Virus record (IMG/VR): IMGVR_UViG_3300042691_025813
Coordinates: 1 to 52,439 of that record
Length of the DNA stretch: 52,439 nucleotides
From: a virus
Strand: one strand, 5' to 3'
The position numbers and the translations under genes were made by a program. The notes beneath the pieces are model-generated. The model was given only the letters and a program-made list of their open reading frames with translations. It was not told the origin of the DNA and ran no database searches. This document shows, piece by piece, positions 2,810-51,798 of the stretch (positions within the stretch are counted from its first letter, which is position 1; each line of letters opens with the position of its first letter).

Positions 2810-5800
2810 TCAAAGATTCGACCTCACATTGAAAGTAACGACGATGTACAACAAGGGGAAGACGGGCTGATAGTAAGCCTCGACCTCGGCCACGGTCGGA
2901 TCATCGTCCGAGACTTTCGCGGAAACTCCGGTGAAGCCAGCGATAATCTGGCCCGCTTGGAGCTTCTGAAGAACGCCCGAGAGAGTATTCTCGATTTGGC
3001 CCGTGATGCCCGGAAGGAACTTCGTCCCGATAAACTTGTCCAGGGCATTGCGGGCTTGCTTCTGAACCTCGTCGGCGATTTGGGTGACCGTCGGAAGCTT
3101 CGTGAGGATATTCGTCATATCCGTCGTGAGCCCTTGACGTACCCGAATCTGGTTCTGCTGTTGGAACAGGACCGTCACGCCGCGAGTAGCAACTTGATTC
3201 TGTTCCACGGGGTCCAGAACCCGAGCAATCCCGTCAAACCCAAATACCTGAGCATTAGTCCAAGGAGTCGCTACATCGATGCTCGGAGAAGCGCGGGTTC
3301 CGGCGAAAGCCGCCGCCATGTAAGTGCCATCGACGAGATAAGACTCAATCGTTCCGACCGCGTTGGTAAGGCTTAGCGTGTAGATGTCGGGGTACAACAT
3401 CCGAAGACGGGTACGGCCGATTGCTTGGGCCTCGTTTCCAACGTCCCTCGGTTCAGTCCCCGCAGAAACTCCGACGATCCCCGTTCTTTCCGCACGGTAA
3501 CGGATTGAAGACTGGATATCGCAGTGTTTCGCAAGGTACTGGAACAGGGAGAGAGAATCACCCCTTAGAGGAATGATGTAATCCGGGAAAGCGCCTCCAG
3601 GAAGAGGACCCTCAATATCGTCGATCGCCGCTTCATAAGCAGGAACCGAAGCTTGATCGTCCACCCCGTCCCCGTTGACATCAGTGTCTTTCGGGACCTG
3701 CTTGATCGCAACAAGGACGGCCCCGTTGATGATCGAGAGGTAAGAAGCCAGCGTTACCGGATTCTCAGGGGAGTTCGCCCCGTAGACGGCTTGGATCGTC
3801 GACATCTTTGTGTAAAGGGCGGGAGAGAAGTCTTGCTTCCGGTAGTCATAGGAGACGTAATACAAATCCCCTACGTTGGGTTCTGCTCCGGAGGGAGCGA
3901 AAGTAGAAACAATCGCGGTATCCCCGGTTGAAATCCCGAGAGTGTTGGAAACCAGAAGCTGAACACCCGGAAGAGTATTCACCGGAATGTTAGCATTCGT
4001 GGTTGCGTTCTTTCTCACTTTGAGAGTAAAGAACTGACCCGCCGGGTAAGAAGCCCCTCCAGTTCTGGGTAGAACCGTGAAAGTAAGTCCGGTCACCAAG
4101 TCACGGTAAGTCTGACCGACGTTTCCGTCTTGGCCGACCGCCGCGTTAAGAACGGACGTATTCGCGGTCCCGGAACCGTTGACCGGATCCGAAGAAGTCA
4201 CAAAGAAGCCTTCGATTGCATCTTCTCCGACTGCGCCGTCTCCGTCTTGAACTCCAAGTCCCCCGCCCGGAAGAAGCGCATTGTCAGAAGCCGCATCTTC
4301 GAAAGCGATCGAAGAAAGGGTTCCAGCACCCGCATTACCAAGGCTTTGAACAAAGAGGTAATCGGCCCCCGCAGAATCTTGGAGAGTCTTTGCGAGGGCG
4401 TCCAAAGAGAAGCTGGAATTGTTCATCAAGCCGGAAACAAGAACTTCCGGTTGAAGCAGAGTACGGAAAGCCGTTGATCCTTCTGAGAAGCCGAGAGGCC
4501 CGTTCGCGGATCCGTTTCCGATAACGATGCTGGAAGAAACTTCTACCGAAGATCCACGGAAACGGATTCCGGCTCCTTCTTGCAAGAGCAATCTTGCAGA
4601 AAGAACCGCCGCCGCCGAAGCCCCAAGACCCGCAGAAGCCATCGCTGCTGCGATTTGGTTCAGGATGGTATTTGCAGTTCCCGCCGGACCGAGAGGTACG
4701 TCCGCAGAACCCGCTGAAGGAATCACGGCCCCGGAAGAGTCTCTAAACTCAACCGTGACGGGAACCCCCTCAAAGGTAAACTTGAAGACGTTGTTCTGAG
4801 CAGTTGTTCCGCCCGCCGCAAAGAAAGTCACAATCGGTTGGCCTAAACCAGACTGGCCCCCAGAAAGACCGACTTCGCCGAAGAGAGTCGGCTCCATCAT
4901 AGTGGCGCGGATACCGGCCAAGCCTTCTGCATTCGGGGTGAGGCCGGAAAGGGAAGCCCCAGTTCCACCAAGAATCCTTAGCTGGCATTGGTCCAGGGTG
5001 CTTTGACCGTCCAGAGAACCCCCTTGACCCGGAAGGATCCGGTTTCTGAGGATCAAACGGTCATAAGCATGAACCCCGGTAGTCGGCCCGGTGAAAGTAA
5101 AGACCGAAGCGATCTTGTGGTTTACAATCTTGACTTGGCTTCCAAGGGCAGAACCTAAGTCAAGTCCGGCGAGGATCGCGAAGTTGTTTGCCGGAAGAAC
5201 GCCAGTGCTTACAAACTCAAGTACCGCTTCCTGATCGTCTTGGGGGTGACCCGCAAGCAAGAATACCAAACGACCCGAAGAATCCGCTTCTACGAAGATT
5301 TCAACTTCATCGTTTGTTCCAAACGCCGCAAGTACCGCAGTGTCAACAGCAGTCTGAACTGCCGCTGCCAAAGCGGAAACCGAAGTGTAGTTGGAAGCCG
5401 CGATAGAAGCGGTGATGGTCGTCGGGGCGGTGGAGTTACCCGAATAAACCATTCTCAGAGTTGCAAACCCTGATGAAAGATCGGTCGGGGCCAAGAACCG
5501 AGTCTTGGTCTTGATGTAAGGAAGGGCGTCCGGGTTGTAGGCGACGTAAGAATCTCCGATCGCAGGAACCCCGGAGAAGTTAGAATCCACCGTCGCGGTT
5601 CGGGTAGAACCCACGTAGCCGGAGATCACTCTCTTGTCACCTGCGGCTGCGCCGGAGATCACTTTGACGATCCAATTCTCGTAGTGACCCGAATTCTCGG
5701 AAGCCGTGATCGGGAACACGATCGTTGAGAGCGTTCCGAAAGTCGCGTCCGCGAACTCTCCGAAAGAAGCCCGATTGATTGCGTCCGCGAAATCTTGGAC

Positions 5801-8248
5801 GGTCTTACCGGAACCCGTGTTCAAGGAAGCTTGAACGAGAACCCCGTCAACTTGAAGATCAACCCCGTTATTCGCAGAAGTGATTTCAAAGCCGGTCCCG
5901 TAAACCGAGCCTCCGGTCAGAGTAGCACCAGAAACTACAATGTTCAAGTCACCCGAAACCAAGGTGATCGAGTTGCCAGCAGTTCCGGCGTCGGTCGCAG
6001 TGACGTAAACCTTTGCACCGATTGCTTGGGCGCTTACCCCGGAAACCGAAGAAACCGCCGAAGCCAAAGAAGAAGCCGTGGCCGCATCGTTTACGCCGAT
6101 GTTCCAATCCACGCCTTCTGTAAGAACGGAACCATCTACGGTAACCGTAGATCCACCTGCGGGAGCACCTTGGACTTCAAAGAACCCCGAAGCAGCAACC
6201 GCTTGATCATACGTGATTTCTTCGCCCGTCCAGTAAGCAAAGAAGCCCGTTCCATTCCCGGTTGGGTCTGAAAGATCAAACGTAGAAGCTCCAGCGTTAT
6301 CGATATTCAGAGCGAGGTTATCGCTCGCCCCGCTTACCAAGTAGTAGGGGCCTGAACCCGTGACTGCAAACTTGGCAAGAGTCGCATCCTGGGATGCGAA
6401 AGTTACCGTGACGTCTTCTTCCACCGCTCCGGAGAACTCCGAAGTATCAAAGGGGCTCTCAAAGCGAGAGTCCGGAGCTTTCTCAGAACCTGATGGGAAG
6501 TTTACGGTGACCGTCGACAATCCCGCGGACTTGGTACCCCAAGTCGGGGTGAGCAAGAAAGAACCCTGAGAATCTTGGATCGTGTAAGTTCCAACTCCGC
6601 TTGGACCCGGAGCCACAACGGTCAGGGTGTATTCTTGATCTTGGATCGTGTTATAGTAGAAAGTCGCCCAAACCTTGGCTCCGGTCGGAACCGGCGAAGC
6701 AAGGGTGATCGTGTTGGTATCCGACTCTACTTTGGTGACTTTCACCCGACCCCGGTCAAGGGCGTCCGAGATTGAATAGCCCCAGTAAGCAAAGATCAAA
6801 TCCGGGCGGTTTGTCGGAAGGTCCTGCCGACCATTTGCAACTTTGTTGAAAGTCTCAGTTCCGCCGGTGATCGGAGTGTTGCGACCATTTCCGGTAGTCG
6901 GCTGAAGGGGCAGAACAAACTGCTTGCGGCCTTCTACGGGAGGGTTGACCGAAGTGTCAACCACCGGCTCGCACAGAGCAAGGTATTGACGAACGTCTAC
7001 CAGAGTGTCTGAAACTTGGCTCTCTCCAAAGAAAGTTGCCCCGGAAGTGTGAACCCCGGATTCTACGAGAGAAGCCGTCCCCCAAAGGATATGATCATCC
7101 TTTAGAACGAAGTCCACCCCTTCGATGTAATCCGAACGGTCTGGGGTAATTCCGCAGAGGAAGATGTCCGTGATTCCACGGTGTTGCAGGTAATCAAAAG
7201 TGTTCTGCCAGGAGTTGAAATAATACTGGCAAGTAACCGAGGCTCCAACTTCCGGCGCAAAGGGAAGAGTAACGGCTCCGGTCTGCCCGTCCAAAGCTGT
7301 CGGGACCACTTGAACCCCGTTGACTTTGACCGTAACGTCCGCCGGATCCGTGGTCGTCAAACCTCCGTTAGACCCATCCACGATGGGCCTTTGGAAAGTA
7401 TAGAACACATTATTGCGGATTGTCTGAACCCCCTCTGTAAGTCCCAGAGTGGGATTCGCGGTGCCCGCAAGAATCTTGATGTTACGGTCCGAAGCAAGCT
7501 TCAAGACCGTCTGACCAAAGTTGTTTACAGCAGAAGAAGCAACAAGGGAAGTCCCTGTCGCCGCAGCGTTGATAAAAGCAGCGACTTGCGCCGCAGTCCA
7601 ACCCGCGAGAGGGGAAGAAGAGATCGTTACCGAAACGGTAGTCGCGTCATCTACGAGGAAAGAGAGTGAGTCGTTCTCCCCGGAGATAACCTCAAAGTTC
7701 TGCCCGACTGCCCCGTAAAGGACCGGAGCATCCGAACTGACTTGATCCGAAAGGTTGTCCGTGATAAGGGTATCGGTACGATTGAAGAAATAAGTGACCC
7801 GAACAACGTCGGTCGCAAGAGGCTTGGTAGAGAGCTGAAGGATTCCCTTTGTTCCATCAACCGTGAGAACGACGATCGGGCGACCGTTTACCGTCACATT
7901 GATAGAAGAAGCGTTTGTCGCAACGGTTCCAGTCCCATCTCCCGTAACAATCGGGAAGTTGCGAACTTGAAGCCGGTCGCGGGTTCCGTCAAAGTCCCCG
8001 AGCGTTACCGCACCTGACGCAGAAATCGAAACAACTGCGCGCCCGGATTCGTCTTCTTGGACGATTCTTTGGTCCACAGAAGTAGAAGAACCCCGGACCA
8101 CTTCCAAAGAATTCTGGCGCAGGATCTCAGAACCAACCCCAAGAAGAAGGGGGATTCTGACGTTAGACGCAACGCCTTGGACGGGATCCTCAAAGAGGGT
8201 TCTCGTGTAAACGCCGGGAGGAGCGTAGACGGAGCCTGGAAAAGCCAT
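2810..8248 (-). CDS. Contractile tail sheath protein, extra-long
   Basis: A 1812-aa protein. The N-terminus (MAFPGSVYAPPGVYTR, then IPLLLGVG) and last ~350 residues are classic sheath: SLSLFQYLAKHCD, RTRLRMLYPD, GVTVLFQQQNQIRVRQGLTT, ADEVQKQARNALDKFIGTKF, GITGQIENTLSGVLQKL and YYQPVFPLLYIVVTF. These C-terminal elements form the conserved core that polymerises around the tail tube and contracts on infection. Sheaths are usually about 350-700 aa. Here roughly 1000 extra residues between the two ends are Gly/Ser/Thr/Ala-rich, beta-type sequence with Ig- or fibre-like repeats, probably extra domains decorating the tail surface. It is the largest gene in the window and is preceded by a leader with alternative hairpins. 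No frameshift or internal stop is seen. Confidence 0.92.
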   Translation of the reverse strand: MAFPGSVYAPPGVYTRTLFEDPVQGVASNVRIPLLLGVGSEILRQNSLEVVRGSSTSVDQRIVQEDESGRAVVSISASGAVTLGDFDGTRDRLQVRNFPIVTGDGTGTVATNASSINVTVNGRPIVVLTVDGTKGILQLSTKPLATDVVRVTYFFNRTDTLITDNLSDQVSSDAPVLYGAVGQNFEVISGENDSLSFLVDDATTVSVTISSSPLAGWTAAQVAAFINAAATGTSLVASSAVNNFGQTVLKLASDRNIKILAGTANPTLGLTEGVQTIRNNVFYTFQRPIVDGSNGGLTTTDPADVTVKVNGVQVVPTALDGQTGAVTLPFAPEVGASVTCQYYFNSWQNTFDYLQHRGITDIFLCGITPDRSDYIEGVDFVLKDDHILWGTASLVESGVHTSGATFFGESQVSDTLVDVRQYLALCEPVVDTSVNPPVEGRKQFVLPLQPTTGNGRNTPITGGTETFNKVANGRQDLPTNRPDLIFAYWGYSISDALDRGRVKVTKVESDTNTITLASPVPTGAKVWATFYYNTIQDQEYTLTVVAPGPSGVGTYTIQDSQGSFLLTPTWGTKSAGLSTVTVNFPSGSEKAPDSRFESPFDTSEFSGAVEEDVTVTFASQDATLAKFAVTGSGPYYLVSGASDNLALNIDNAGASTFDLSDPTGNGTGFFAYWTGEEITYDQAVAASGFFEVQGAPAGGSTVTVDGSVLTEGVDWNIGVNDAATASSLASAVSSVSGVSAQAIGAKVYVTATDAGTAGNSITLVSGDLNIVVSGATLTGGSVYGTGFEITSANNGVDLQVDGVLVQASLNTGSGKTVQDFADAINRASFGEFADATFGTLSTIVFPITASENSGHYENWIVKVISGAAAGDKRVISGYVGSTRTATVDSNFSGVPAIGDSYVAYNPDALPYIKTKTRFLAPTDLSSGFATLRMVYSGNSTAPTTITASIAASNYTSVSALAAAVQTAVDTAVLAAFGTNDEVEIFVEADSSGRLVFLLAGHPQDDQEAVLEFVSTGVLPANNFAILAGLDLGSALGSQVKIVNHKIASVFTFTGPTTGVHAYDRLILRNRILPGQGGSLDGQSTLDQCQLRILGGTGASLSGLTPNAEGLAGIRATMMEPTLFGEVGLSGGQSGLGQPIVTFFAAGGTTAQNNVFKFTFEGVPVTVEFRDSSGAVIPSAGSADVPLGPAGTANTILNQIAAAMASAGLGASAAAVLSARLLLQEGAGIRFRGSSVEVSSSIVIGNGSANGPLGFSEGSTAFRTLLQPEVLVSGLMNNSSFSLDALAKTLQDSAGADYLFVQSLGNAGAGTLSSIAFEDAASDNALLPGGGLGVQDGDGAVGEDAIEGFFVTSSDPVNGSGTANTSVLNAAVGQDGNVGQTYRDLVTGLTFTVLPRTGGASYPAGQFFTLKVRKNATTNANIPVNTLPGVQLLVSNTLGISTGDTAIVSTFAPSGAEPNVGDLYYVSYDYRKQDFSPALYTKMSTIQAVYGANSPENPVTLASYLSIINGAVLVAIKQVPKDTDVNGDGVDDQASVPAYEAAIDDIEGPLPGGAFPDYIIPLRGDSLSLFQYLAKHCDIQSSIRYRAERTGIVGVSAGTEPRDVGNEAQAIGRTRLRMLYPDIYTLSLTNAVGTIESYLVDGTYMAAAFAGTRASPSIDVATPWTNAQVFGFDGIARVLDPVEQNQVATRGVTVLFQQQNQIRVRQGLTTDMTNILTKLPTVTQIADEVQKQARNALDKFIGTKFLPGITGQIENTLSGVLQKLQAGQIIAGFTGVSAKVSDDDPTVAEVEAYYQPVFPLLYIVVTFNVRSNL

Positions 8249-8371: not shown

Positions 8372-8866
8372 TCAGACCTTCTTGTCTTTGTTTTTAGAGG
8401 CTTCCTTTTCTTCTTTGATCTTTTTCGAAAGGGCTTGATTTATCTCGGATGCGATTTTTCTGCCTTCATTTGCGCGAACTCTTTCTTCTTCCCGGATAAC
8501 CCTGTAGCCGCCCTCGGATGTAGGGACCAACTGATTCCGCTTTACGTCTAAGCCGTTCTCTCTTTCATGCCGGATGACTCTATCTTTTTCGGAGTTTCTC
8601 TTCTCAATAACGCCCCACTTCTTCTCGGCATCCCTTCCGATGGCTTTATCGTAGTTCCAATCGTCACTTGTTCCCGTGTTGGGGGGAGCCGCGCCCCTGA
8701 CTTGACTCTGGGGGTGTGCAAACTTGAAGCTTGCCGCCGAAACCAATTTTCTCATAGGGTCTTCGCATTCCGGGCAAGGAATAGAATCCTTTGCTATGGA
8801 GATGCGAGTCCAGAAATGTTCTTTCCTCAGACCGCAAGAATCGCATTGGTATTCATAGACTGGCAA
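8372..8866 (-). CDS. FmdB-type zinc-ribbon protein
   Basis: A 164-aa protein starting at a TTG at 8866 with a strong GGGAGG Shine-Dalgarno 8 nt upstream. Residues 1-45 form a single zinc ribbon of the FmdB / putative regulatory protein type: MPVYEYQCDSCG, CPECEDPMRKLVS, with ligands C8, C11, C31 and C34. After this comes a long, highly charged helical tail rich in Lys, Arg and Glu (ERENGLDVKRNQ, IKEEKEASKNKDKKV) that could bind nucleic acid or a virion partner. Phages of this type commonly carry such ribbons near structural genes, with no established function. A run of nine G directly follows the stop codon on the plus strand. Confidence 0.8.
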   Translation of the reverse strand: MPVYEYQCDSCGLRKEHFWTRISIAKDSIPCPECEDPMRKLVSAASFKFAHPQSQVRGAAPPNTGTSDDWNYDKAIGRDAEKKWGVIEKRNSEKDRVIRHERENGLDVKRNQLVPTSEGGYRVIREEERVRANEGRKIASEINQALSKKIKEEKEASKNKDKKV

Positions 8867-8903
8867 GTGAGAACCTCCCTGGTAGAAAATATACCGGAAG
8901 ATT

Positions 8904-11144
8904 TTATCCGGGTTCCGGAAGACCTTCTGGTTGGTCTACCCCCATTTCGTCCCAATGAACTTCAAGGGAGCCTTTGTCCCAAGAAGCATAATCGTGGCTT
9001 ACCATCCAAGCCAACCTCAGAGCAACGGTGACCGGAAGAATAGCATTCAAGAAATATTTTGAAGGAAGACCCGGAAACAAGAGGGACAGAATCAGACCGA
9101 TCCCTGCTTCTGGGAGACTCTTTAGAAGTTCCACAAACGTGTAGCCGCCGGAGAAGCCCCGAAGAATATCCGGGACGTCCCAAGAAATCTCGGTGACGTT
9201 CAACCAAATCACTGCGAAAAGAGCAGCCGAAACCGCTTTCCCTGCAAGCAGAGAAATAGGATGCTTTCTCACATAATCATCCAGAACTTCAGCGATACCA
9301 GTTACAGACTTCGCGACGGATTTTAGTGCGTTTGAAATCTTAGGGGGGAGGTAATCCCCCAACTTTAGAAGATAAGCGTTGAGGGCCGGCATCTTCCCTC
9401 TCGCCTCAAAGTAGATCTTGAAGAATGGAACTTTGTCTACGAGGTAATCCCCTGCTTTTTGTAAAGCATCTTTCCCTTTTTTGACGAAGTTCTGAATCTT
9501 GCTTGGGAGTTCTTTGAGCGCGCTGAGAAGAGAATCCGCTCTTACGCCGATCATATCCTTGAAATCCTCCCAGGCTTCTTTTTGGGAAGAGAAAACCTCC
9601 CAGAGGGCTTTGATCTTTTTCGCAACGTCAAAGGCTTGTTTTTGGGTGGAGATCTTAGACCCGTGGGAATCCAAGAATGAAAGAAGGACTTCTGAAGTGA
9701 GCTCTTTGTTGGACTTGGAAGCTGTTCGGCCTGCAAGGATTTTCCGAACTTCGTTCCTCAGAGTATGCTGGGAAGCAACACGTTTTTCAAAGGACCTCTG
9801 AAGCCTCTGTTCGACTTTCTTCCAATCCACGAGGTTATCGAACAGGGCTTCAAAATGCTTCGCTCGATCGTTCTGGTAATCCAAATAATAAGCGTGCTCC
9901 CACGCATCAATCGGTAGGAGAACTTCTCCTTCCCAAAGAACTCCATTTTCGTGGTTCATCACAGTGACGATCCTTAGACCGTCCGGGGTTGATACCAAAA
10001 CGCCCCAACCAGATCCCCGGACTTTAACGGCGCTCTCTTTCATCTGAGATCGGAAATCTTCCCAGGACCCGAAATCTTCTTCAATGGTTTTCTTGAGGTC
10101 CTGAGAAGGTTCTTCATACTCCGGGGTCAAAGACTCCCAATACAGAGTATGCAAGAAATGACCTCCCGCATTGAATTGCATCGCCGCGTTTAGGGCGGGG
10201 ATCCTCTCAAAGTCTTTTTCCTTTCGGGCTTTGGCGATTGCTTTCTCCGCTTCGTTGAGCCCGTCGACATAAGACTTGTGGTGCTTATCGTGATGGAACC
10301 TTAGAGTCTCCTCGGAGATATAAGGCTCAAGGGCGTCATAAGCATAAGGAAGTTTCGGAAGAGAGTGTTTTCCAACAGATGCAGTCCTAAGAATCTCCCC
10401 GGAAGAAACTTCAGGGCCAGTCACGAATTCTAAAATCTCTTGGAGCTCCTCGAGGGTTGGCTCCCGGTTGATTTCTGGGTGATCCCGATAAAGATTTCGG
10501 ACGTCATCCAAAGCCACTTGCATTACATCCGAAGGTTCATCCCCGATCAACCCGCCCCCTTCAGATTTCCACCAACCGGCTTTCTTCTTTCTCCAACCCC
10601 CGCCCTCATCTTTGTAGATCTTCAGGGCGTGCCCCACCGCATAAGCAGAAGGCCACTTTTTGTACCTGGACTTCGCTATATCTTTGGATTCTTCCCACAA
10701 GTCGGGGTCGGTCGGCTCGTTTTCCCCCGCAAAGATATCTCTGGACTCTTTGAAGGTTTTGGTATGCGTCGTGGATTTACCCTCACCCCTATCTTTCTTC
10801 TCCGCCCGCATCTTCTCTTTTGCGAGTTCTGCCCTTTCTTTCTTTGGGGTGTCCCAAGCTTTCTGCCTGGGCATGCATTTCAGAGGGTCTTTTCCACCCC
10901 CGGTTTCTTTCTTCCAGTTTGGATCTTCTGAAATCCCGCACGGCCCGATAATATCCCCCGGATAAACAGTCTCTTCTTTGACTGTGCCGTCCGCGAGTTC
11001 TTTCTTGATCTTTTTCTTTACGGGGGATATTGCGACCCAATCACCCCAAGTCGCGTCGCCCTTGCTCCCGCCGTGGCCGCTAAACCATTCGTCCAACCCG
11101 CCGTGGCCCACATCTTTCTTTGCCCTATTGCGCGCTGTTCTCAT
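8904..11144 (-). CDS. Fusion protein: small phage domain + Fe/Mn superoxide dismutase + membrane segments
   Basis: A 746-aa protein starting at the ATG at 11144 with AGGGGG upstream; TTG 11201 and ATG 11159 are weaker starts. Residues 15-180 hold GGLDEWFSG, WGDWVAISP, GDIIGPCG, CMPRQKAW and KKWPSAYAVGHALKIYK, resembling a small domain of giant-virus and phage proteins (I believe DUF5872). Residues about 260-451 are a complete Fe/Mn superoxide dismutase domain: LPKLPYAYDALEPYIS, FHHDKHHKSYVDGLN, GGHFLHTLYWESL, GSGWGVLV, IDAWEHAYYLDYQNDR. All four metal ligands are present (H284, H332, D413, H417), as is active-site Y292. Residues 470-625 are helical, and hydrophobic segments lie near 632-649, 671-693 and 698-714. 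SOD dismutates superoxide to O2 and H2O2. The fusion and membrane tail are unusual, and the product may be virion- or membrane-attached. Confidence 0.88.
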   Translation of the reverse strand: MRTARNRAKKDVGHGGLDEWFSGHGGSKGDATWGDWVAISPVKKKIKKELADGTVKEETVYPGDIIGPCGISEDPNWKKETGGGKDPLKCMPRQKAWDTPKKERAELAKEKMRAEKKDRGEGKSTTHTKTFKESRDIFAGENEPTDPDLWEESKDIAKSRYKKWPSAYAVGHALKIYKDEGGGWRKKKAGWWKSEGGGLIGDEPSDVMQVALDDVRNLYRDHPEINREPTLEELQEILEFVTGPEVSSGEILRTASVGKHSLPKLPYAYDALEPYISEETLRFHHDKHHKSYVDGLNEAEKAIAKARKEKDFERIPALNAAMQFNAGGHFLHTLYWESLTPEYEEPSQDLKKTIEEDFGSWEDFRSQMKESAVKVRGSGWGVLVSTPDGLRIVTVMNHENGVLWEGEVLLPIDAWEHAYYLDYQNDRAKHFEALFDNLVDWKKVEQRLQRSFEKRVASQHTLRNEVRKILAGRTASKSNKELTSEVLLSFLDSHGSKISTQKQAFDVAKKIKALWEVFSSQKEAWEDFKDMIGVRADSLLSALKELPSKIQNFVKKGKDALQKAGDYLVDKVPFFKIYFEARGKMPALNAYLLKLGDYLPPKISNALKSVAKSVTGIAEVLDDYVRKHPISLLAGKAVSAALFAVIWLNVTEISWDVPDILRGFSGGYTFVELLKSLPEAGIGLILSLLFPGLPSKYFLNAILPVTVALRLAWMVSHDYASWDKGSLEVHWDEMGVDQPEGLPEPG

Positions 11145-11219
11145 TTGTCGCCCCCTCATTCCCACGGCATTCCGGATAAGAGGGTCCGCCAAGATAAGCA
11201 AAACAACGCCAAAGTCTGA

Positions 11220-11765
11220 TCACCTGTTACGATAAGACTTCTTCTTCTCGACCCATAGGGAAGCAACAATAGCGGGTCTTGGGGCAATAACTCCTCCACC
11301 AAGGCCGAAATCTAACAGAGGCTTGAAAGATTCCCTCGTGTCCTCATAAAGCGATTCCATCCAATCTAAAGGGTGGACCCTATCCAGGTAATACTTGACC
11401 TCTGCCAGCAAGAGCTCTGCCTTCAAGAGAAGCCAACCTGCTTCTTTCAGGAGATAATCTTTGGAATCGTCTTTCCTGGAGAGGATTTCAAGTTCCTTCT
11501 TGGATTTCTCAAGGCCAGCAGTGGCCCAAGAAAGAAATCCAACGATCCCGATATCATCAGTACTGTAATTTCCCGAATTCTTTTTACGCGCCTCCGTCGC
11601 GAGGGGTTTGATCTTAGAAGCAAACCCCTCTACTTCCTTGAGAAGAACGCGGATCCGATTGCGAAACTTTTTCGGGAGGTCATCGGCTTTAAGGGCTTTC
11701 CGAAGATTGTTCACAGCGCCCTCGGCCCCCAACTCCGCAAGAAAAATATGTTTCGCGGAAGTCAT
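11220..11765 (-). CDS. Hypothetical helical protein
   Basis: A 181-aa protein (MTSAKHIFLAELG...) starting at the ATG at 11765, with AGAGGA 5-6 nt upstream, directly after the stop of the preceding gene. It is almost all alpha-helical and Lys/Glu/Leu-rich (AVNNLRKALKADDLPKKF, KEAGWLLLKAELLLAEVKYY), with a Gly-rich patch (DFGLGGGVIAPRP) near the C-terminus. I recognise no family. It is translationally linked to the 92-aa protein and the SNF2-type helicase upstream, and lies before the SOD fusion in the same transcript, which suggests a virion-associated or assembly role, but that is only context. Confidence 0.7.
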   Translation of the reverse strand: MTSAKHIFLAELGAEGAVNNLRKALKADDLPKKFRNRIRVLLKEVEGFASKIKPLATEARKKNSGNYSTDDIGIVGFLSWATAGLEKSKKELEILSRKDDSKDYLLKEAGWLLLKAELLLAEVKYYLDRVHPLDWMESLYEDTRESFKPLLDFGLGGGVIAPRPAIVASLWVEKKKSYRNR

Positions 11766-11766
11766 G

Positions 11767-12045
11767 TTAGTCCTCTGAAATCGGCATTGGAAGAAGGCCG
11801 CTCTCGAGGAGACCCCCATAAGAAAGATATTCCCCCGGAATTCCTTCTGGGGGATCTTCCCCTTCGGACTCAAACCTCTTAGCAAACATCAAAAGAATCT
11901 GAACTATGTCTCGGCCAGGAAACCCTTCTTCTTGAAGGGTTCTGACAAACACAAGCGTATTCGCGGCGATCGCTACGTCCCGGAGATCGTCCGAAGTCAG
12001 GGAAGAGATATACTCGGCCCATTCGGGAAGGCTGTTTGGTCTCAT
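11767..12045 (-). CDS. Hypothetical small protein
   Basis: A 92-aa acidic protein (MRPNSLPEWAEYISSLTSDD) whose ATG overlaps the stop of the SNF2-type helicase gene as ATGA, so the two are translationally coupled. It is predicted to be helical (LRDVAIAANTLVFVRTLQEE, DIVQILLMFAKRFESEG) with an acidic, Pro/Gly-rich tail. No motif is recognised. The coupling suggests it may act with the helicase. Confidence 0.7.
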   Translation of the reverse strand: MRPNSLPEWAEYISSLTSDDLRDVAIAANTLVFVRTLQEEGFPGRDIVQILLMFAKRFESEGEDPPEGIPGEYLSYGGLLESGLLPMPISED

Positions 12046-15000
12046 ACTTCAGTCTCCTGCTCTCCGAATTGTTGGGCGTAGGGAGAAAGAGCTCTCTCTA
12101 ACATACGCCGCTCTACTTTGTAGAGCATAGACCTCTGCTTCTTGATCTCAGTCCATTCTTCACCAAGGCGCTCGACTTGAGAGTCAAGGACTACTTGGTT
12201 GAAGAGATTTTCGTCGATACCCTGAACGACCTTACGGATCTCGTCCAGGGTCTGAGAAGCTCCCCTTCCAGCAAATGCCTCTTGGAAAGTGAGGTCGATC
12301 GTGTACTCGTCTACCGGCTTCTTGTTGCCGGAACGCCATGCGCGGGCGGTTCTTTGCTTCATAGTCTCGTTAGACCAACCGTCACGATCCAAGTGGATCA
12401 CGTGGCCGAAACTTTGAAGATTCTGCCCGACGGCATAAGATCCAGTCAAAACTGCAGTGTGGACCGGATAGCCCGTGATCTTTGTTCCAAGGCCCAGAAC
12501 TTTCCCAAGGACAAAAGATTTCCACTCTTCGGCTTTTACGGCTCTTCCGGTTTCAGGGTCAGTGTATTTCTTTGCTTTGAACGTCAGGTACTCACCCGTC
12601 GGGGTGCAGTAGATGATCGAATCCTTCAAGCCAAGGATATGACCCTTACCTGGAAACCTCTTCTGAAGATCCGAGAAAGTGTCTTCTGCGAGTTCTTTCG
12701 AATCCGAGAAAAGAAGAACCCGGTCATCCATCGAGATCTGAGAGATAATCTCTGCAGCCCTTTCAATCTTGGGGTTCGGAAGTCCCGGAATAACCCTGTT
12801 TGGAACATCCGAGAGCCGAGTAAGGTTTGAGAGGGGTCTCGTGATTCTACGGCTTGCCGCTTCAAAAGCAAGCTCCGGCCTCTCCCGGTAGACCGCGAGG
12901 AGATCCTTCAACCCCTTGATGACGGAATTCATTTCCGTACGATAAGCTTCTTCTAACTGAGGGGGCATCGTAACAGAAACTGTATCTTTGCGAAGCCTCT
13001 CAATCTTAGAGTCTTCTTCGGTGACGGAAGTCTTGTCCGCGAAAAACAAGTTCCTCTTGACCCAAACCCGGAAGTCTTTCGCGGCGTTTGGATCCCGCGT
13101 AACCGAAACCGGGCGACCGCCGACGTCCTGGGTGTAGAATCCAAGAAACTTGGCTTCTTGGGCCCTACCCTCCGGAGAATTCAGATCCAAGTTGTTCGCG
13201 ACCGAAGCCAGGGTAAAGACTTCTCTTGGAGCCTTTACCATCGGGGAAGCGGTGAGAAGAACCTTGTGCTTGGATTTGCAAGACACGGCCGCTTTGTATG
13301 CAGATTTCGACTTTGATCCAAGATGAAGATGCGCTTCGTCAAAGTAGACGGCGATGTAATCATCCCCATAAGTTGGGTCTTTCTTACGGAGGTTTGAAAA
13401 CCTCGCATAAGAAAGGATATCCACCCGCTTGGAGATCTCGTCCGCGACCGGCCGCTCAAGAAACTTGTAGAATTCACCCACCAAGTTTCCAAGGAGGTCT
13501 TTCTCACAGACATACAGGTAACGACCGTTGGTCCCTTCGGCTTTGCCCCGCATATCCAAGTTCATCATGGAAGCGATCGCGGTGACGGTTTTGCCCATCC
13601 CCGTATCCAAAGCGCAGATCCCACGATCCCCGTTTGCTTCCATCCAAGCAAGGGCGCGCATTGTATGCCGCCGGAGAGGAAGCCTCAAACCAAGCCTCTC
13701 CGAAGAGAATCTCTCTAAGTTCTCTGCATCAGCGGCACGCCCGGCTTTGGAAAGTTCCTCGAAATACTCGGAAAGAAACTTAGATGCGGCAGAAGACAGC
13801 GCCAAGCTTCCGACACGGTCTCTCACAATGTTGAAGTCTTTCGCTTCGAAAGTGTAACCAGACCTCCGGGTTCCAGGAACCGCTTGAATGGTCGGGACTG
13901 ATCCCGAAAGACGGGCCATTTCGTTGCGGATTCCCGTGAAAGAATGCTCCGCGCTTACTTGCAAGTAAAGCTTGCCGTTGAACAGAGTAACATAAGGTTC
14001 CCTTGTTCTACGGATGTTTAGGGTTCCATCGGCGTTCTTGGTGTCTCTACGGGTGATCTTTGTTCCCGTGTCATAATCCAGATAATAAGCGGAACCTTCG
14101 ATTTGCCGACCTGCCGCATTGACAAGACTTGGAATAGGGATTCCGCGATAACGACCCGCGACCACAACAGGAACCCCGCCGATGTCCGCTACACGATAGA
14201 TCTTCGTGAGGGCGGTTGATTTGTTGGGGTCGTCCGTCAAGGACATGTATTTCGGAGGGCTGTTTACTGCCGCCCTTTCGACTTCTTCGTCCGAGAAAGT
14301 CCGAATCCTCTCAATCGTCCGGGTTTGCCCAAGAGGGTTGATCGCTTTCTGTACGGATTTGTTTTTCGACTTGACTTTGACAATAAAGTCTTCGACGGAG
14401 AGAACTTCCCCGTCTAAGTCATAGACTGAGGTTTCTCCCGTTACCGGGTCCGTACCGATATTCATCGGGCGACCAAAGATTTCCCGGACGGAAGAAACTT
14501 TCCCCTCTTCAGAGATTCTCTTACGGATGGAAGCTCCAATCTTCCATTTCTGCTCCCGATCCATCTGAAGGCGCTCAAACAGTTCGGGATCTTCGCGCCG
14601 AACCTTTTCAACTTCTTCTTCTTTCCTGGAAGCTTTCTGAAGGCGAAGCCAACGGACCGGTGAAACTCCAGGAAGCCTGCGCGCAGTCAGAAAGACGTCT
14701 TTGTCCGCTGAAAGCGATTGGATCAAATCCGAATAGCTCTCAACCAGAGTTTTCCATAGCGGCAGAGGAAGATCTTGGCCGCTGTCCACCCTGCGAAGAA
14801 TCGGCAAGATTTCCTGGGTCTTCTGTTCCACCCGAATACGTGTATTCTCAGAAGTGATCCTTGAGTCCAAGACCCCAACCGCCCGAAGAAAGCGATTGTA
14901 GAATCCTCGATCACCGGGGATCAATCCCGCTTGTTCTGCATCAAAGACATCTTTGAGCTCACCGTACATCTCAAAGAACTCCGTGATGATCGGAGTCCTT

Positions 15001-15146
15001 CCGAAAGCGCGATAGATCTGAAGAAGGCTGACTTGAGCGATCGGAGTGAGGGCGTCAGGAACCCTTGGGTCGTAATCTTCTTCAGAAGCGACTTTAGAGT
15101 TCAACTCCGAAAGCCAAGAAGTAAGCGTGAGCTCGATGTTAGCCAC
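12042..15146 (-). CDS. SNF2/DEAD-like helicase with long N-terminal region
   Basis: A protein of about 1034 aa. A GTG at 15146 has GGAG 6 nt upstream and is preferred; a TTG at 15158 is the longer option. The C-terminal half is a superfamily 2 helicase: LPLRRHTMRALAWMEANGDR, Walker A ALDTGMGKTVTA (near residue 515), DEAH box YFDEAHLHLG (near 605), motif III LLTASPM, then DRVLLFSDSKELAED and motif V/VI TGSYAVGQNLQSFGHVIHLD and MKQRTARAWRSG. SNF2-type ATPases translocate on double-stranded DNA and remodel DNA-protein complexes. The first ~480 residues match nothing I recognise and include helical and beta-rich stretches. The gene lies among probable virion-associated genes rather than in the replication run, so the protein may be packaged or act early on host DNA. 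Confidence 0.85.
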   Translation of the reverse strand: MANIELTLTSWLSELNSKVASEEDYDPRVPDALTPIAQVSLLQIYRAFGRTPIITEFFEMYGELKDVFDAEQAGLIPGDRGFYNRFLRAVGVLDSRITSENTRIRVEQKTQEILPILRRVDSGQDLPLPLWKTLVESYSDLIQSLSADKDVFLTARRLPGVSPVRWLRLQKASRKEEEVEKVRREDPELFERLQMDREQKWKIGASIRKRISEEGKVSSVREIFGRPMNIGTDPVTGETSVYDLDGEVLSVEDFIVKVKSKNKSVQKAINPLGQTRTIERIRTFSDEEVERAAVNSPPKYMSLTDDPNKSTALTKIYRVADIGGVPVVVAGRYRGIPIPSLVNAAGRQIEGSAYYLDYDTGTKITRRDTKNADGTLNIRRTREPYVTLFNGKLYLQVSAEHSFTGIRNEMARLSGSVPTIQAVPGTRRSGYTFEAKDFNIVRDRVGSLALSSAASKFLSEYFEELSKAGRAADAENLERFSSERLGLRLPLRRHTMRALAWMEANGDRGICALDTGMGKTVTAIASMMNLDMRGKAEGTNGRYLYVCEKDLLGNLVGEFYKFLERPVADEISKRVDILSYARFSNLRKKDPTYGDDYIAVYFDEAHLHLGSKSKSAYKAAVSCKSKHKVLLTASPMVKAPREVFTLASVANNLDLNSPEGRAQEAKFLGFYTQDVGGRPVSVTRDPNAAKDFRVWVKRNLFFADKTSVTEEDSKIERLRKDTVSVTMPPQLEEAYRTEMNSVIKGLKDLLAVYRERPELAFEAASRRITRPLSNLTRLSDVPNRVIPGLPNPKIERAAEIISQISMDDRVLLFSDSKELAEDTFSDLQKRFPGKGHILGLKDSIIYCTPTGEYLTFKAKKYTDPETGRAVKAEEWKSFVLGKVLGLGTKITGYPVHTAVLTGSYAVGQNLQSFGHVIHLDRDGWSNETMKQRTARAWRSGNKKPVDEYTIDLTFQEAFAGRGASQTLDEIRKVVQGIDENLFNQVVLDSQVERLGEEWTEIKKQRSMLYKVERRMLERALSPYAQQFGEQETEV

Positions 15147-15161
15147 AAGATTCTCCAAATC

Positions 15162-15821
15162 TTATCGAGAAGAGACTTGCCTCAACCAAGACTTCATTCT
15201 GGAGTTGTTGATCTCCAGGGCCGAGAGCTTCGGCATCTTCTCTTCGTTCGCAGGAACGGCTTTTTCAGCTTTGGGGTCTACGGAATCTACCACGAGGCGA
15301 TTTAGCGTAGACACCGCTTTCCCCCCAGGACCCTTTTTGATCTCTTCCGGGGTCGGGGGGGCTTGCTTGGCGTCCGAGACTGTTTTTCTCTTTGAGAGGT
15401 CCAAGTTATCTTTGGATGCTGCTTCTGCGGCTATTTCTGGGGAGTTTGTAATCGCCCCGGTCTCCGCAAACTCGCGAACCTCACTGAACTGGGGGGCTTT
15501 GTAGAAAGCCCCTTCTGCGGAAGGAGCAACTTTCGGGGGGGCTTTCTGGGCTGTTCTGATCCCCTGTGGGTAAAACAACTCCAGAACAACCCACTCGTCC
15601 ATGTAATCTATCTCGGCACTTCCAGTAGGGAATTTCTGGAGGTAGAGAACCTTCAAGCGTTTTGCTTCTTGAAGGTCTTCCTTCCCGATTTTCTGTCTGC
15701 CGACATCTCCGTGTTCCCTCGTGATAAGAGAAACGGATTCCGAGTTGATAGAATCAACTCGAAACCAAGTATTTTCACTACGGAGGAAAGCAGAGATTTC
15801 GGTCGGAATACGCATGGTCAT
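15162..15821 (-). CDS. Hypothetical protein with disordered linker
   Basis: A 219-aa protein whose ATG at 15821 overlaps the stop of the Dps-like gene (ATGA). Residues 1-90 look like a compact mixed domain (ISAFLRSENTWFRVDSINSE, DEWVVLELFYPQG). The remainder is Ala/Pro/Lys/Glu-rich and probably disordered, ending in a short basic helix (EINNSRMKSWLRQVSSR). No family is recognised. Tight coupling to the Dps-like gene suggests co-production with it. Confidence 0.7.
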   Translation of the reverse strand: MTMRIPTEISAFLRSENTWFRVDSINSESVSLITREHGDVGRQKIGKEDLQEAKRLKVLYLQKFPTGSAEIDYMDEWVVLELFYPQGIRTAQKAPPKVAPSAEGAFYKAPQFSEVREFAETGAITNSPEIAAEAASKDNLDLSKRKTVSDAKQAPPTPEEIKKGPGGKAVSTLNRLVVDSVDPKAEKAVPANEEKMPKLSALEINNSRMKSWLRQVSSR

Positions 15822-16456
15822 GCAAGAACCTGCTGAAGAAGATAGATGTTGGTTTCATGCGCGCTCGCAGTCGCCATGATCCAATCATCAAACCCAAGGG
15901 TCAGGCCGCCGCAGGCTTTCAGCCGGTTGTAGCAATTCTTCAGGAGTTTCTGAAGATCTTGCTCTGCATAGAGTGCCCTCTGATGGGGGTCGGCTACTTT
16001 GCACCAATGCGAGCAGTACCCTTGAATCAGGGAAATCTGATTCGGGAGGAAAACGCTATCCCCGCCCGTGTACCCCACAAGCTTCTCGGCTGCGGAATCA
16101 ATCTCTTCTTCTACGCTCTCGTACAGGCGCTGGAAGAGAAGATGATTCCCGTAATAGTTCGGGCCTTTGGCTTGCCAGTGCAGGGTCTGGTAAAGCATGT
16201 ACTGCGCGCGAAGGGCGGCAAGGATATGCGACAAGCAGTTACGGACTTCGTCCAAGTTTTGGGTTTCTACATAAGCATTCTTTTTGTTCTTCAGCTCTTC
16301 CCGAACTTTGAGTACGGACTCCGGAGGATTCTCGTTCATTTCCGCAAACTCAGGATTATCCTGAAAGAACTTCTTCTTTTCCGCCTGGGACATAGGTCCG
16401 GCTTTGTGCTTTGCTGAGAGGCTGCGGGCAATTTCTGATGGGAGAAGAAAAGACAT
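15818..16456 (-). CDS. Dps-like ferritin-fold protein
   Basis: A 212-aa protein with a charged ~65-aa N-terminal extension, then a Dps/ferritin four-helix domain at about 68-205: CLSHILAALRAQYMLYQTLH, HWQAKGPNYYGNHLLFQRLY, SVEEEIDSAAEKLVGY. The Dps inter-subunit ferroxidase spacing is kept (H93-x11-H105-x14-D120-x3-E124, matching Listeria Dps H31, H43, D58, E62); the fifth ligand D47 is Q109. Dps proteins oxidise Fe(II) with H2O2 and store iron, protecting DNA from Fenton chemistry. A Cys/His patch (GYCSHWCKV) follows. It lies 4.7 kb upstream, in transcription direction, of the SOD fusion, and the two activities are complementary because SOD produces H2O2. Confidence 0.82.
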   Translation of the reverse strand: MSFLLPSEIARSLSAKHKAGPMSQAEKKKFFQDNPEFAEMNENPPESVLKVREELKNKKNAYVETQNLDEVRNCLSHILAALRAQYMLYQTLHWQAKGPNYYGNHLLFQRLYESVEEEIDSAAEKLVGYTGGDSVFLPNQISLIQGYCSHWCKVADPHQRALYAEQDLQKLLKNCYNRLKACGGLTLGFDDWIMATASAHETNIYLLQQVLA

Positions 16457-16743: not shown

Positions 16744-17124
16744 CTATGTGACGCCGGAAGTTTCACAGCCTTTTGAAACAAGCCACTCATCGAGCTTCTG
16801 AAGAGATTCTCTGTCCCTGGATTTGAAAGTAACTTTATCCGGCTCAACCTTTACGCCGAGGTCCTTAATCGGGGGAACTTTATCCAGACGGGATTTCCCA
16901 TCCCGAAAGCTTTTGAGCAGGGCCGGGAGATTCTTGATCTGTTCCGACCCTATGTAAACCACAAGTCTATGTTCGGGTAAGGCTTCTCGCTCAAGCCAAG
17001 AACGAGCGACCTTTTTCGCCATCGAGACTTTCTTGTTGGGGGGCTCAGAAGTCAAAATTTCCTCGAACACCGGGAAAGATAGCGAACCTAACGGGTTAGC
17101 CAACTTGGTAGATAATCTCTTCAT
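16744..17124 (-). CDS. Hypothetical protein
   Basis: A 126-aa protein whose ATG at 17124 lies inside the 3' end of the sigma-like gene (29-nt overlap). No strong Shine-Dalgarno is seen, and an internal ATG at 17022 (MAKKVARSWLEREALP) is an alternative start. The central MAKKVARSWLERE segment is a basic amphipathic helix of a kind often found at domain edges in large-phage proteins. The rest (VVYIGSEQIKNLPALLKSF, DKVTFKSRDRESLQKLDEWL) is mixed alpha/beta. No family is recognised. Confidence 0.65.
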   Translation of the reverse strand: MKRLSTKLANPLGSLSFPVFEEILTSEPPNKKVSMAKKVARSWLEREALPEHRLVVYIGSEQIKNLPALLKSFRDGKSRLDKVPPIKDLGVKVEPDKVTFKSRDRESLQKLDEWLVSKGCETSGVT

Positions 17125-17701
17125 TCCAAGCCGCTCGGTTGCTGTGCTTCAACACATTGAAGTTGTCTCGAACTTTTTCAAAGACCCCAAAATACTTTGA
17201 GCACAAAGAGTCTTTCTCTATCAGGGGGAGAGTCCGGAAGAATCTATGCCTTACGAAACCTTGTGTGACTCCAATTTCCCGAGCGACATCGCTCTGACAA
17301 GTAGTGCGGATCATTCCCATCATGATTTGCACGTCGACAGGATCTTGCAAAGAAATCTTGAGATCTCTTTCGATATCCGCTATCGAGTAAGGCGACAAAT
17401 CCAACAAGAACTTGATTCTCGCGGTAGCTCTTCTCAAACGGTAACAAACCGTCGGCTGACTAACATTGAATATCTCAGCGATAGATGTCTGGCGAACCTT
17501 ACGGAAAAAGTAAAGGTCGATGAAGTCGGCTTCTCTTGGAGGAATCAAGTCCAAAATTTCCCGCACCCTCTCCAAATCGTCAAAGCTCTCTTCTTGGAGA
17601 TCGTCCCATACCGAGGGTTGCTCCGAGATAGAGTCCTCATTAGAGAAGATCTTCTCCATATCCATCGGGTCGTAGAGTAAGAAGCTCCCCCAGTTACTCA
17701 T
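17096..17701 (-). CDS. Sigma factor region 4-like double helix-turn-helix protein
   Basis: A 201-aa protein starting at the ATG at 17701, with GGAGG 8 nt upstream inside the end of the NusG-like gene. Residues 46-100 resemble sigma-70 region 4: ILDLIPPREADFIDLYFF, TSIAEIFNVSQPTVCYRLRR, ATARIKFLL. A second HTH lies at about 130-160 (TTCQSDVAREIGVTQGFVRH). There is no clear region 2, so it may be an anti-sigma-like or accessory specificity factor rather than a complete sigma. Coupling to the NusG-like gene and DnaX suggests a regulatory module controlling phage transcription during replication. Confidence 0.75.
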   Translation of the reverse strand: MSNWGSFLLYDPMDMEKIFSNEDSISEQPSVWDDLQEESFDDLERVREILDLIPPREADFIDLYFFRKVRQTSIAEIFNVSQPTVCYRLRRATARIKFLLDLSPYSIADIERDLKISLQDPVDVQIMMGMIRTTCQSDVAREIGVTQGFVRHRFFRTLPLIEKDSLCSKYFGVFEKVRDNFNVLKHSNRAAWNEEIIYQVG

Positions 17702-18254
17702 CTTGAAAGTCCTCCCCCAAAGGGCTGAGTACAAATTTTGGGAAAACCCGGATGGACTCCAAGGATCTCAATGAGATCCTAACGCAAACAGAATCCTCAT
17801 CCACGAGGAGAGCGACTCCTTCGACTCCCTCATAAGAACCTTTCAAGATTAGAACCCGGTCACCCTCGGCGATAGAACTCGAAGCCATTTGGTTGAGTTT
17901 GGCTTTGAGTTCTTCTAATTGCTTATTTGGAACCGTATGCAGAGAGAAGGTGTATCCGGACTTAGAATGCATAACGGATTTTAGATAAGGGGAATCTCGA
18001 ACTGCCAGAACATATTCTCGAGAATCCAAAGTATATTCTACAAAGCAGTACCCCTCCATGACGTTCATGAGGGTTTTCCTGCCGTCACTAACACAAACCC
18101 TGTATGGGATAAAGACCTGCTCGGGCTTGATTCCGAACAAGTCTAAAATATGCTTCTCGAGTTCCCCAGATACCGCTGTTTTCTCACCCAAATAAGTCAA
18201 CTCAAAGACCAACCAGGTCTTTTCGTCCCTCTCGTCTTTATTGGGAGCCCCCAC
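17694..18254 (-). CDS. NusG-like transcription elongation factor
   Basis: A 186-aa protein with NusG architecture. An NGN-like domain spans about 12-115: KTWLVFELTYLGEKTA, LFGIKPEQVFIPYRV, MNVMEGYCFVEYTL, YVLAVRDSPYLKSVM. A KOW domain follows at about 129-178: AEGDRVLILKGSYEGVEGVA, DSVCVRISLRS, IRVFPKFVLSPL. The domain order, the xGYxFVE strand and the G-D-x-V-x-x-x-x-G-x-(Y/F)-x-G KOW signature support the call. NusG/RfaH/Spt5 proteins clamp RNA polymerase and control pausing and termination; a phage paralogue would be expected to act as a processive antiterminator. It overlaps dnaX by 17 nt at its 5' end and the sigma-like gene by 8 nt at its 3' end. Confidence 0.82.
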   Translation of the reverse strand: MGAPNKDERDEKTWLVFELTYLGEKTAVSGELEKHILDLFGIKPEQVFIPYRVCVSDGRKTLMNVMEGYCFVEYTLDSREYVLAVRDSPYLKSVMHSKSGYTFSLHTVPNKQLEELKAKLNQMASSSIAEGDRVLILKGSYEGVEGVALLVDEDSVCVRISLRSLESIRVFPKFVLSPLGEDFQDE

Positions 18255-36583: not shown

Positions 36584-37945
36584 TTACCCTTTGAGCATAC
36601 CGAGGATCGTGGATCTTTCCTTCGAGCCTTTCGGAAGACTCGAAGCGAGCCGAACAAGAACTGCCCGGTTCTCGGAAGCAAACCGAGCCCAAGAAGGAAC
36701 TTTCTTCATGCTCCGCTCAAGCCTGGCGTTTTCTTCTTGCTGGACGGCCCTCCAACGAGGGTCATCCTTGGGGATCTCTTTCCAAGTCTTTGGTTGAGAC
36801 TGAGTCGGAGACTCAAACCCGCCGCCGCCGTAAGTCTTGGGGCGACGGCTGATTTCTTGACGCATTACTTGAAGGATGTCCCTGCTCTTGACGAGTTCTT
36901 TGACGGCTTCGTCGGACTTAATCGCCGAGAACATCGCCGGAAGAACAGCGTCTCGGAAAACCTTGGACATCACGACGTCCATGGACTTCCCGGTGTATTC
37001 TTGACCGGTCCTGGAAGCAACAAGCTTCGCGAGCTCTCTGCCTTGGACGCCGATCTTCAAACCGCCGCCATCCGAAGGGGAAGAAGGAGTCATCGTCAAG
37101 ATCGAAGGATTGTCCCTGACGATCTCCCAAACCATTTTCTGGTTCGGGGTTCTCAGACGAGAAAGAACCTGCTCACTAATGATGTCCAAAGTTGCATCGT
37201 AGCGAAGAACCGCTGAAGCCAGGTCTTCTGAGAAAACAGATTCATCCTGGGTCAGCATCTCAAGGATAGCTGCCGGGGAGTCCACCAAACCGACTTCCGA
37301 CCCGAAAGCCGGCTGGTCCAAAGAAACCGCTCCGATTTCTTCTTTTGAGGTTCCTCTGACGAGGTCTTTGGTCCGGTTTGCGACTTCTTTCTTGGCGACG
37401 GACTTCACGCCCTCCAAGGTGATCCCCGGAGTGGCTTTCTGGCCGAGCCAGTACATCATCCCCTTGCCCTGGCCATACTTCATCCAATTGCCCGTAACAG
37501 GAGAAATCCCGAAAGCAAGGGAGTTCACAACTGCATGGGCCGAAATCCCCCGGATAGACCCCGAAGGGCGCATCTGGTTGCTTGCGGCGTAAAGAAGACC
37601 GTTCCAAATCTGTTGGTCGTTCGCGGAAACAAACTTCAAAGCCTCTGCGGGAGACATCTGAAGATCCGTAACAAGCTTGCGGGCGATCGGGTTGGTCTCG
37701 TAGTCCCCGCTGGTGATCGCTTTGCGGGCTTCTCCAAGATGCAGCGCCGGCTTCCTTGTTAGGGTGTTGGGTTCATACCCCATAGCACCCTCAATATAAG
37801 AAAGTCTAAGAAACTGATCTTCTTGGGCTTGGGCCATCTTCGCCCAAGCCGTGAGTACCCGGAAAAGTGGGTTTGACTCAGATACGGAAGAAGCCAACCT
37901 GATCAGGCCGGCGTTGGACTTTCTTGCGGCGACAAGGCTTCGCAT
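36584..37945 (-). CDS. Virion-type protein with RLASS tag at both ends
   Basis: A 453-aa protein starting MRSLVAARKSNAGLIRLASS at the ATG at 37945, with GAGGGAG upstream. The N-terminal NAGLIRLASSV is a shortened version of the helical tag. The C-terminus ends in a full copy (LVRLASSLPKGSKERSTIL plus GMLKG). The middle is helical and mixed (TRKPALHLGEARKAITSGDY, ISAHAVVNSLAFGISPVTGN, SVFSEDLASAVLRYDATLDI) and includes a long unit about DNA- or protein-binding size, but no family is recognised. It is the first minus gene after the divergent region and is followed by the endolysin. Tags at the ends suggest targeting or packaging. Confidence 0.75.
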   Translation of the reverse strand: MRSLVAARKSNAGLIRLASSVSESNPLFRVLTAWAKMAQAQEDQFLRLSYIEGAMGYEPNTLTRKPALHLGEARKAITSGDYETNPIARKLVTDLQMSPAEALKFVSANDQQIWNGLLYAASNQMRPSGSIRGISAHAVVNSLAFGISPVTGNWMKYGQGKGMMYWLGQKATPGITLEGVKSVAKKEVANRTKDLVRGTSKEEIGAVSLDQPAFGSEVGLVDSPAAILEMLTQDESVFSEDLASAVLRYDATLDIISEQVLSRLRTPNQKMVWEIVRDNPSILTMTPSSPSDGGGLKIGVQGRELAKLVASRTGQEYTGKSMDVVMSKVFRDAVLPAMFSAIKSDEAVKELVKSRDILQVMRQEISRRPKTYGGGGFESPTQSQPKTWKEIPKDDPRWRAVQQEENARLERSMKKVPSWARFASENRAVLVRLASSLPKGSKERSTILGMLKG

Positions 37946-38302
37946 AAGATCTCCCTCGGGATAGAACTTACACGAGGATGGAAGATAACCGAAGTATTGG
38001 AAGAGAGTGAGGTCCAACAGGTTTCCCTCCGAGAACTTTCGCCGTAATGGTCAGGGGCCAAGGCGAAGGAAGAGAAAACTTCCTTGGAAAACTGGAACCT
38101 CCTCGGAGAGGCCTCAAAACCTCTCAGAAACATTCAAAATACAGTGAAAAACGCATCGTTTTGACTCGTCTTCGCAAGAGACGGGTTACCCTACGTTAGT
38201 CCTTGGCTTGACTCCGCTCTTTAGAGCTTCGTCCCCCGCCTTTGGACTTCAACAAACCATTCTCGCCGAACTCTCTTGAGAGTCAGGCAAACGAGAGCAA
38301 AA
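37946..38302. promoter_or_regulatory. Divergent intergenic region with hairpins
   Basis: This gap of about 357 nt separates minus-strand genes (up to 37945) from plus-strand genes (from 38303), so promoters for both directions are expected here. I see several small inverted repeats: GAGAGG/CCTCTC near 38115-38135, CGTCT/AGACG near 38165-38181, GCTCT/AGAGC near 38217-38228, ACTCTC/GAGAGT near 38270-38283. TTGACT occurs near 38160, but no convincing -10 box is paired with it. No credible gene is seen inside. Confidence 0.5.
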
Positions 38303-51772: not shown

Positions 51773-51798
51773 AAAATAACTCCTGGAAATCTTCGGGG

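Follow-up and report, generated by a model that had tools for sequence, protein, structure and literature searches.

A near-core Dps-like gene and an accessory superoxide dismutase fusion in a clade of uncultured huge phages

Gratiaviridae and other gut phages encode Dps together with a Mn-catalase (PMC8008677), and phage superoxide dismutases (SODs) are already annotated in public records. Phages also package multi-enzyme fusions, known as polyvalent proteins (PMC5512222). A survey covering 224 jumbo phages (PMC7824862) mentions neither SOD nor ferritin. Here we analyze the IMG/VR virus record IMGVR_UViG_3300042691_025813 ("the window", which is the whole stretch of 52,439 bases), which encodes a Dps-like protein and a large SOD fusion protein in one gene cluster. 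We find that the Dps-like gene is close to being a core gene of a clade of uncultured huge phages, and that SOD is an accessory gene that was acquired repeatedly or separately within the clade.

A first-pass annotation of the window knew of no comparable phage system. This holds only in part, as the gut phages already combine a phage Dps with a peroxide-handling enzyme (PMC8008677). However, those phages belong to a different group, their enzyme is a catalase rather than a SOD, and their Dps is one of several accessories instead of near-core. The SOD of Pseudomonas phage PA5oct/MIJ3 is, like the window's, a Fe/Mn SOD from a jumbo phage, but it is a stand-alone protein of 182 amino acids, is just 26% identical, and lies on a different SOD branch. 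The PA5oct SOD record carries a note of electrospray ionization tandem mass spectrometry (ESI-MS/MS). Because the same GenBank note is attached to non-structural proteins (e.g., ribonucleotide reductase), it does not prove that this SOD is in the virion. Our literature search, which lacked most subscription journals, turned up no near-core Dps of a huge-phage clade and no SOD within a polyvalent-type protein. These are the new points here, as phage Dps and phage SODs were each known.

Distribution of Dps-like and SOD genes

As a control sample, we used the huge-phage clade as picked by the portal protein (44 records of at least 55 kb). The Dps-like gene was present in 37 of these 44 records, with exactly one copy in each. 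SOD was found in 6/44, which is a lower bound, as many of the records are fragments. Also, the SODs of the clade are split over several separate branches of the tree, and several huge phages have stand-alone SODs without the fusion modules. Dps is therefore near-core in this clade, and SOD is a repeatedly acquired accessory.

The two genes do not travel together. Among the 44 portal-linked records, we found no association between SOD and Dps (5 records with both, 32 with Dps only, 1 with SOD only, and 6 with neither; Fisher p = 1). In the nine genomes with both genes, including the window, the spacing was no closer than expected by chance (combined p = 0.16). Across records with both genes, the distance is mostly 17–130 kb. 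SOD was present in 5 of the 77 Dps-bearing records that we searched, and it was 2 kb from Dps in one of these and roughly 17–110 kb away in the other four. On the basis of the 2x2 table, we rejected a conserved SOD-Dps pair. SOD lies within one to three genes of a ferritin-like gene in two further phages (L031 and L094). In L094, a 159-kb phage that is unrelated to the window, genes for a ferritin (PF00210, 5e-17), a DUF5872-like protein, and SOD are consecutive (8585-10618).

Syntenic relatives of the window give the same picture. In a 63-kb record (L002), the order of genes from the clamp to the tail sheath is largely kept and the genes for the Dps-like protein and a SNF2-type ATPase are in place, but other proteins occupy the position of the SOD fusion. 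This record and about 20 other syntenic relatives retain the Dps-like gene at its position and have no SOD; searching the whole of L002 and the other syntenic relatives turned up no SOD. The first-pass annotation had linked the two proteins in a chain, with H2O2 from SOD being used by Dps, and had suggested looking for SOD, Dps, and SNF2 together in related phages. Given the independent occurrence of the two genes and the Dps-only relatives, the chain does not stand as a conserved system, and the co-occurrence is not conserved: Dps is kept without SOD. SNF2 accompanies Dps in only six records (the window, L002, L016, L018, L019, and L025), and we therefore rejected a conserved trio, or a Dps-SNF2 unit, across the clade. 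A scan with an alignment of the SNF2 protein gave no usable relatives. We also considered a role for the SNF2 protein in anti-phage defence and rejected it, as its matches to defence proteins look like generic helicase similarity. SOD and Dps may share chemistry when both are present, but selection has not maintained the pair.

The Dps-like protein

The open reading frame (ORF) at 15818-16456 encodes 212 amino acids and matches Pfam's Ferritin family (1.3e-6), PHROG 3636 ("DNA binding protein", 4e-11), and NCBIfam's Dps models. (Residue numbers follow the window's ORFs.) The Dps domain is at about residues 66–212, and the N-terminal 60 amino acids are a recurrent phage tag (PEFAEMNENPPESV). 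We found 162 relatives in a scan of IMG/VR, so this ORF is not due to chance. In the AlphaFold model (predicted local distance difference test score, or pLDDT, of 94.6), the protein has the Dps fold, including the BC helix, and its best matches in the PDB are all Dps proteins, with template modelling (TM) scores of about 0.8.

The first-pass annotation described four of five ferroxidase residues at the spacing of Dps, and this is exact: the four are H93, H105, D120, and E124, and Q109 occupies the fifth position. We take position 109 to be the remaining Asp/Glu of the canonical Dps ferroxidase site. Across 64 distinct sequences of the Dps-like family, H93, W94, H105, D120, and E124 are invariant. 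Position 109 is E in 28 of these sequences, Q in 22, D in 8, A in 3, and another residue in 3 (E or D in 36/64). The loss of the fifth ligand is thus variation across the family and not decay in this phage.

The window's protein shares the four-helix bundle, the BC-crossover helix, and the HW...H...D...E spacing with DpsA from Thermosynechococcus (2vxx), Dps4 from Nostoc (5hjh), and Dps from Listeria (1qgh). In contrast to these proteins, to which it is 13–21% identical, it has Gln at the fifth ligand and a phage-type N-terminal tag, and it belongs to an apparently phage-specific branch. Among 84,980 bacterial and archaeal genomes, a pattern-based scan gave just 2 relatives, and one of these is on a contig with a phage terminase and portal, so the branch looks phage-specific.

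The Dps-like gene lies beside the terminase and portal genes in three phages (L035, L036, and L212), and between a sigma-like gene and the sheath gene in the window's group. The large terminase subunits of two of these phages (L212:3508-6795 and L035:11802-15074) are ~1,090 amino acids long and are apparently split by an intein-like insertion. Some other relatives have Dps domains with very basic, protamine-like N-terminal extensions (~34% Lys/Arg; L207:7544-8590 and L197:6827-7954).

The SOD fusion protein and its gene cluster

Besides the tail sheath, the window encodes a clamp, a clamp loader, UvsX-like and RuvC-like proteins, and ribonucleotide reductase, so it is a fragment of the genome of a large or huge contractile-tailed phage. 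The features of interest are:

17096-17734, minus strand: sigma-factor-like protein, upstream of Dps and conserved in the syntenic group
15818-16456, minus strand: Dps-like (ferritin-superfamily) protein, 212 amino acids (Pfam, PHROG, NCBIfam, predicted structure)
15162-15821, minus strand: 219-amino-acid protein with no assigned function; L002 and its relatives have its C-terminal half joined to the Dps domain
12042-15158, minus strand: SWI2/SNF2-type ATPase/helicase, 1038 amino acids (family matches)
11767-12045, minus strand: small protein of 92 amino acids, matches no family
11220-11885, minus strand: protein of up to 221 amino acids, start uncertain, overlaps the previous gene, matches no family
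8904-11201, minus strand: SOD fusion protein, 765 amino acids from TTG 11201 or 746 from ATG 11144
10737-11126, minus strand: N-module of the SOD fusion (GGLDEWFSGHGG..ATWGDW..GDIIGPC..PLKCMPRQKA), with IMG/VR relatives
10581-10715, minus strand: DUF5872-like "WPSAYA" ("SAYA") module of the SOD fusion (domain match)
9804-10370, minus strand: Fe/Mn superoxide dismutase domain (Pfam, ligands, phage SOD relatives)
8907-9770, minus strand: C-module of the SOD fusion, with 3 hydrophobic stretches; a stand-alone gene in other huge phages
8372-8866, minus strand: FmdB-like zinc-ribbon protein, a recurrent neighbor of the sheath gene
2810-8248, minus strand: tail sheath protein, 1812 amino acids, marks a contractile-tailed phage

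On the minus strand, the genes between 16456 and 2810 encode, in this order, the Dps-like protein, the 219-amino-acid protein, the SNF2 ATPase, two small proteins, the SOD fusion, the FmdB-like protein, and the sheath. As first described, the SNF2-type helicase and small proteins without a family lie between the SOD fusion and the Dps-like gene. Most neighbors overlap or are a few bases apart. Scans for promoters and terminators, which are weak evidence, gave no obvious element that divides the group. It is plausible that the SOD fusion and the Dps-like gene are co-transcribed, and we infer that this is a late/structural gene cluster. The sheath protein (2810-8248) is unusually long at 1812 amino acids, and its similarity to other sheaths is confined to its C-terminal part.

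The coordinates and content first given for the region were right. Within the 765-amino-acid ORF (8904-11201), the SOD domain is at residues 278–466 and comprises Sod_Fe_N (278–358, 7e-30) followed by Sod_Fe_C (365–466, 4e-31), both at full length. We doubt the TTG start at 11201; the ATG at 11144, with GGGGGCGACAA before it, is likelier and gives 746 amino acids. All four metal ligands (H303, H351, D432, and H436) are kept, and the best matches among solved structures are Fe/Mn SODs (E = 5e-50). Because His417 (in NHEN) is at the C-terminal water-coordinating position, the window's SOD falls among the C-terminal-His enzymes, which are a class in the SodFM classification (SodFM3/4; PMC10172142). 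It shares the four metal ligands, the HxxxHH motif, and the water-coordinating His with that class. Unlike those enzymes, it has a proline two residues before the Asp ligand, and it sits in a mosaic of 746–765 amino acids.

The closest SODs are encoded by stand-alone genes in three other phages (G034, G054, and G132; 50% identity) and form one group with the window's SOD in the tree (support 90/83). The C-module has a gene of its own in G034 and G132, directly upstream of SOD, so the window's fusion joins parts that are separate neighboring genes in other phages. The C-module family is a ~280-amino-acid, partly hydrophobic protein that stands alone in several huge phages (L178, L180, L181, L183, and L184).

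The other modules recur as well. The N-module has 27 relatives in IMG/VR, and in 17 of the 26 loci that we scored, a Dps-like gene on the same strand is no more than 6 kb away; several of these genes overlap by 4 or 11 bases. By our count, these loci amount to about nine independent groups once near-identical loci are collapsed. The N-module shares 55% identity with a stretch of otherwise unrelated 504-amino-acid phage proteins, and in other proteins it is joined to PAP2, GNAT-like, and PolyA-polymerase head domains. In four phages (L192, L193, L195, and L204; three sequence groups), the DUF5872-like module precedes the Dps domain in a fusion, and in four others (L092-L094 and L148), a gene next to SOD encodes this module.

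The SOD fusion thus looks like a mosaic of phage modules of the polyvalent type. Like the polyvalent proteins (PMC5512222), it is a long fusion in a family of proteins where unrelated catalytic domains (including GNAT-like, PAP2, and nucleotidyltransferase-type domains, in relatives of the N-module) are joined to modules that recur in other phage fusion proteins. Polyvalent proteins are packaged in the capsid and injected along with the DNA, and the window's fusion may be too.

A scan with the whole SOD fusion gave no usable relatives. Among the matches listed in the IMG/VR scan with SOD, which do not allow a rate to be derived, we saw mainly other phage SODs, and many of those from aquatic phages (L097-L170) lie inside longer proteins. 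Such proteins have 500–900 amino acids, with SOD followed by C-terminal regions without an assigned function (e.g., L109 and L156) or preceded by a zincin-like region (HEWxHEH; e.g., L114 and L135). Several have LxE-type motifs just ahead of SOD that resemble the prohead cleavage sites of T4. The window's protein has [KR]xAS motifs on either side of its SOD domain (3 vs. 0.6 expected, p = 0.03), which is too weak to claim them as cleavage sites. The Fe/Mn SODs of some "phage" records in INPHARED look like host contamination.

Two short tags also recur in these phages. The tag RSxLIRLASSLPxGSxERxAIL is found in many unrelated proteins, including at 1511-1897, 36584-38017, and 50846-51802 of the window and at 14602-15129 and 16480-17148 of L002. 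The other is PEFAEMNENPPESVxKxREEM.

Possible roles of the two proteins

On balance, we think that the cluster probably combines a near-core, iron-binding Dps cage that guards phage DNA with a separately acquired, accessory SOD in a mosaic protein, both expressed late. The observed domains, ligands, fold, and conservation, along with the synteny and the lack of association between SOD and Dps, are the basis for this reading. Given its fold and invariant ligands, the Dps-like protein is expected to assemble as a Dps-type cage, presumably a dodecamer, and iron very probably binds between its subunits, where two His, an Asp, and a Glu form the site. With ferroxidase activity, the cage would shield phage DNA from Fe(II) at the stage of late replication, in packaging, or in the virion, and would benefit the phage by limiting Fenton damage. 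The SOD, if active, would remove superoxide at a site that is set by the other parts of the fusion (the N-module, the DUF5872-like module, and the membrane-like C-module), perhaps the particle or a membrane. Both proteins are probably late and virion-associated.

Several points weigh against this reading. The family varies at the fifth ferroxidase position, where the window's protein has Q, so the site could be slow or have become inactive. The strongly basic tail of some relatives is missing from the window's Dps. The structure model of the C-module is poor (pLDDT 57.6) and unsuited to structure search. The count of SODs is a minimum. Finally, the survey of polyvalent proteins mentions neither SOD nor ferritin (PMC5512222).

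Alternatively, both proteins could be auxiliary metabolic genes that raise the host's tolerance of oxidative stress in the cytoplasm during infection, rather than virion cargo. This was proposed for the Dps and Mn-catalase of gut phages (PMC8008677), and the stand-alone SODs of several huge phages, which lack the fusion modules, would fit. But the Dps-like gene is near-core instead of patchy and is beside head genes in several phages, and the window's SOD is embedded between phage modules and is not free, so we consider this explanation rather unlikely.

We think it unlikely that the Dps-like protein is a structural, DNA-condensing, or virion component that has lost its ferroxidase function and uses its cage only for binding DNA or within the virion. 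The fifth position is not Asp or Glu in 28/64 sequences, some relatives have a highly basic extension (34% K/R) on the Dps domain, and the gene adjoins the terminase or portal in some phages, all of which are consistent with this idea. However, a structural-only role does not require that the two His, the Asp, and the Glu be invariant across 64 diverse sequences.

Because the N-module and the DUF5872-like module adjoin or are fused to Dps in some phages and SOD in others, the clade's phages might use these shared modules to package enzymes that handle iron and superoxide. Each particle would then bring its own chemistry for guarding its DNA against Fenton damage, either inside the capsid or on entry; we consider this doubtful. 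Least likely, and in our view improbable, is a dedicated redox shield, that is, a selected two-component system in which the SOD fusion makes H2O2 and Dps uses it to oxidize Fe(II): the shared cluster in the window, the nearby SOD and ferritin-like genes in L031 and L094, the N-modules near Dps, and the DUF5872-like module common to SOD and Dps proteins all favor it, but the genes occur independently, their spacing is no closer than chance, and the closest syntenic records had no SOD.

The weight of the finding lies in the core status of Dps and not in its pairing with SOD. With the SOD fusion, the set of domains known from mosaic phage proteins would come to include an antioxidant one. That a near-core Dps has a strictly conserved metal site suggests that phages with very large genomes may in general have to cope with iron and with oxidative damage to their DNA, and phage Dps would then be more than an occasional accessory for host stress.

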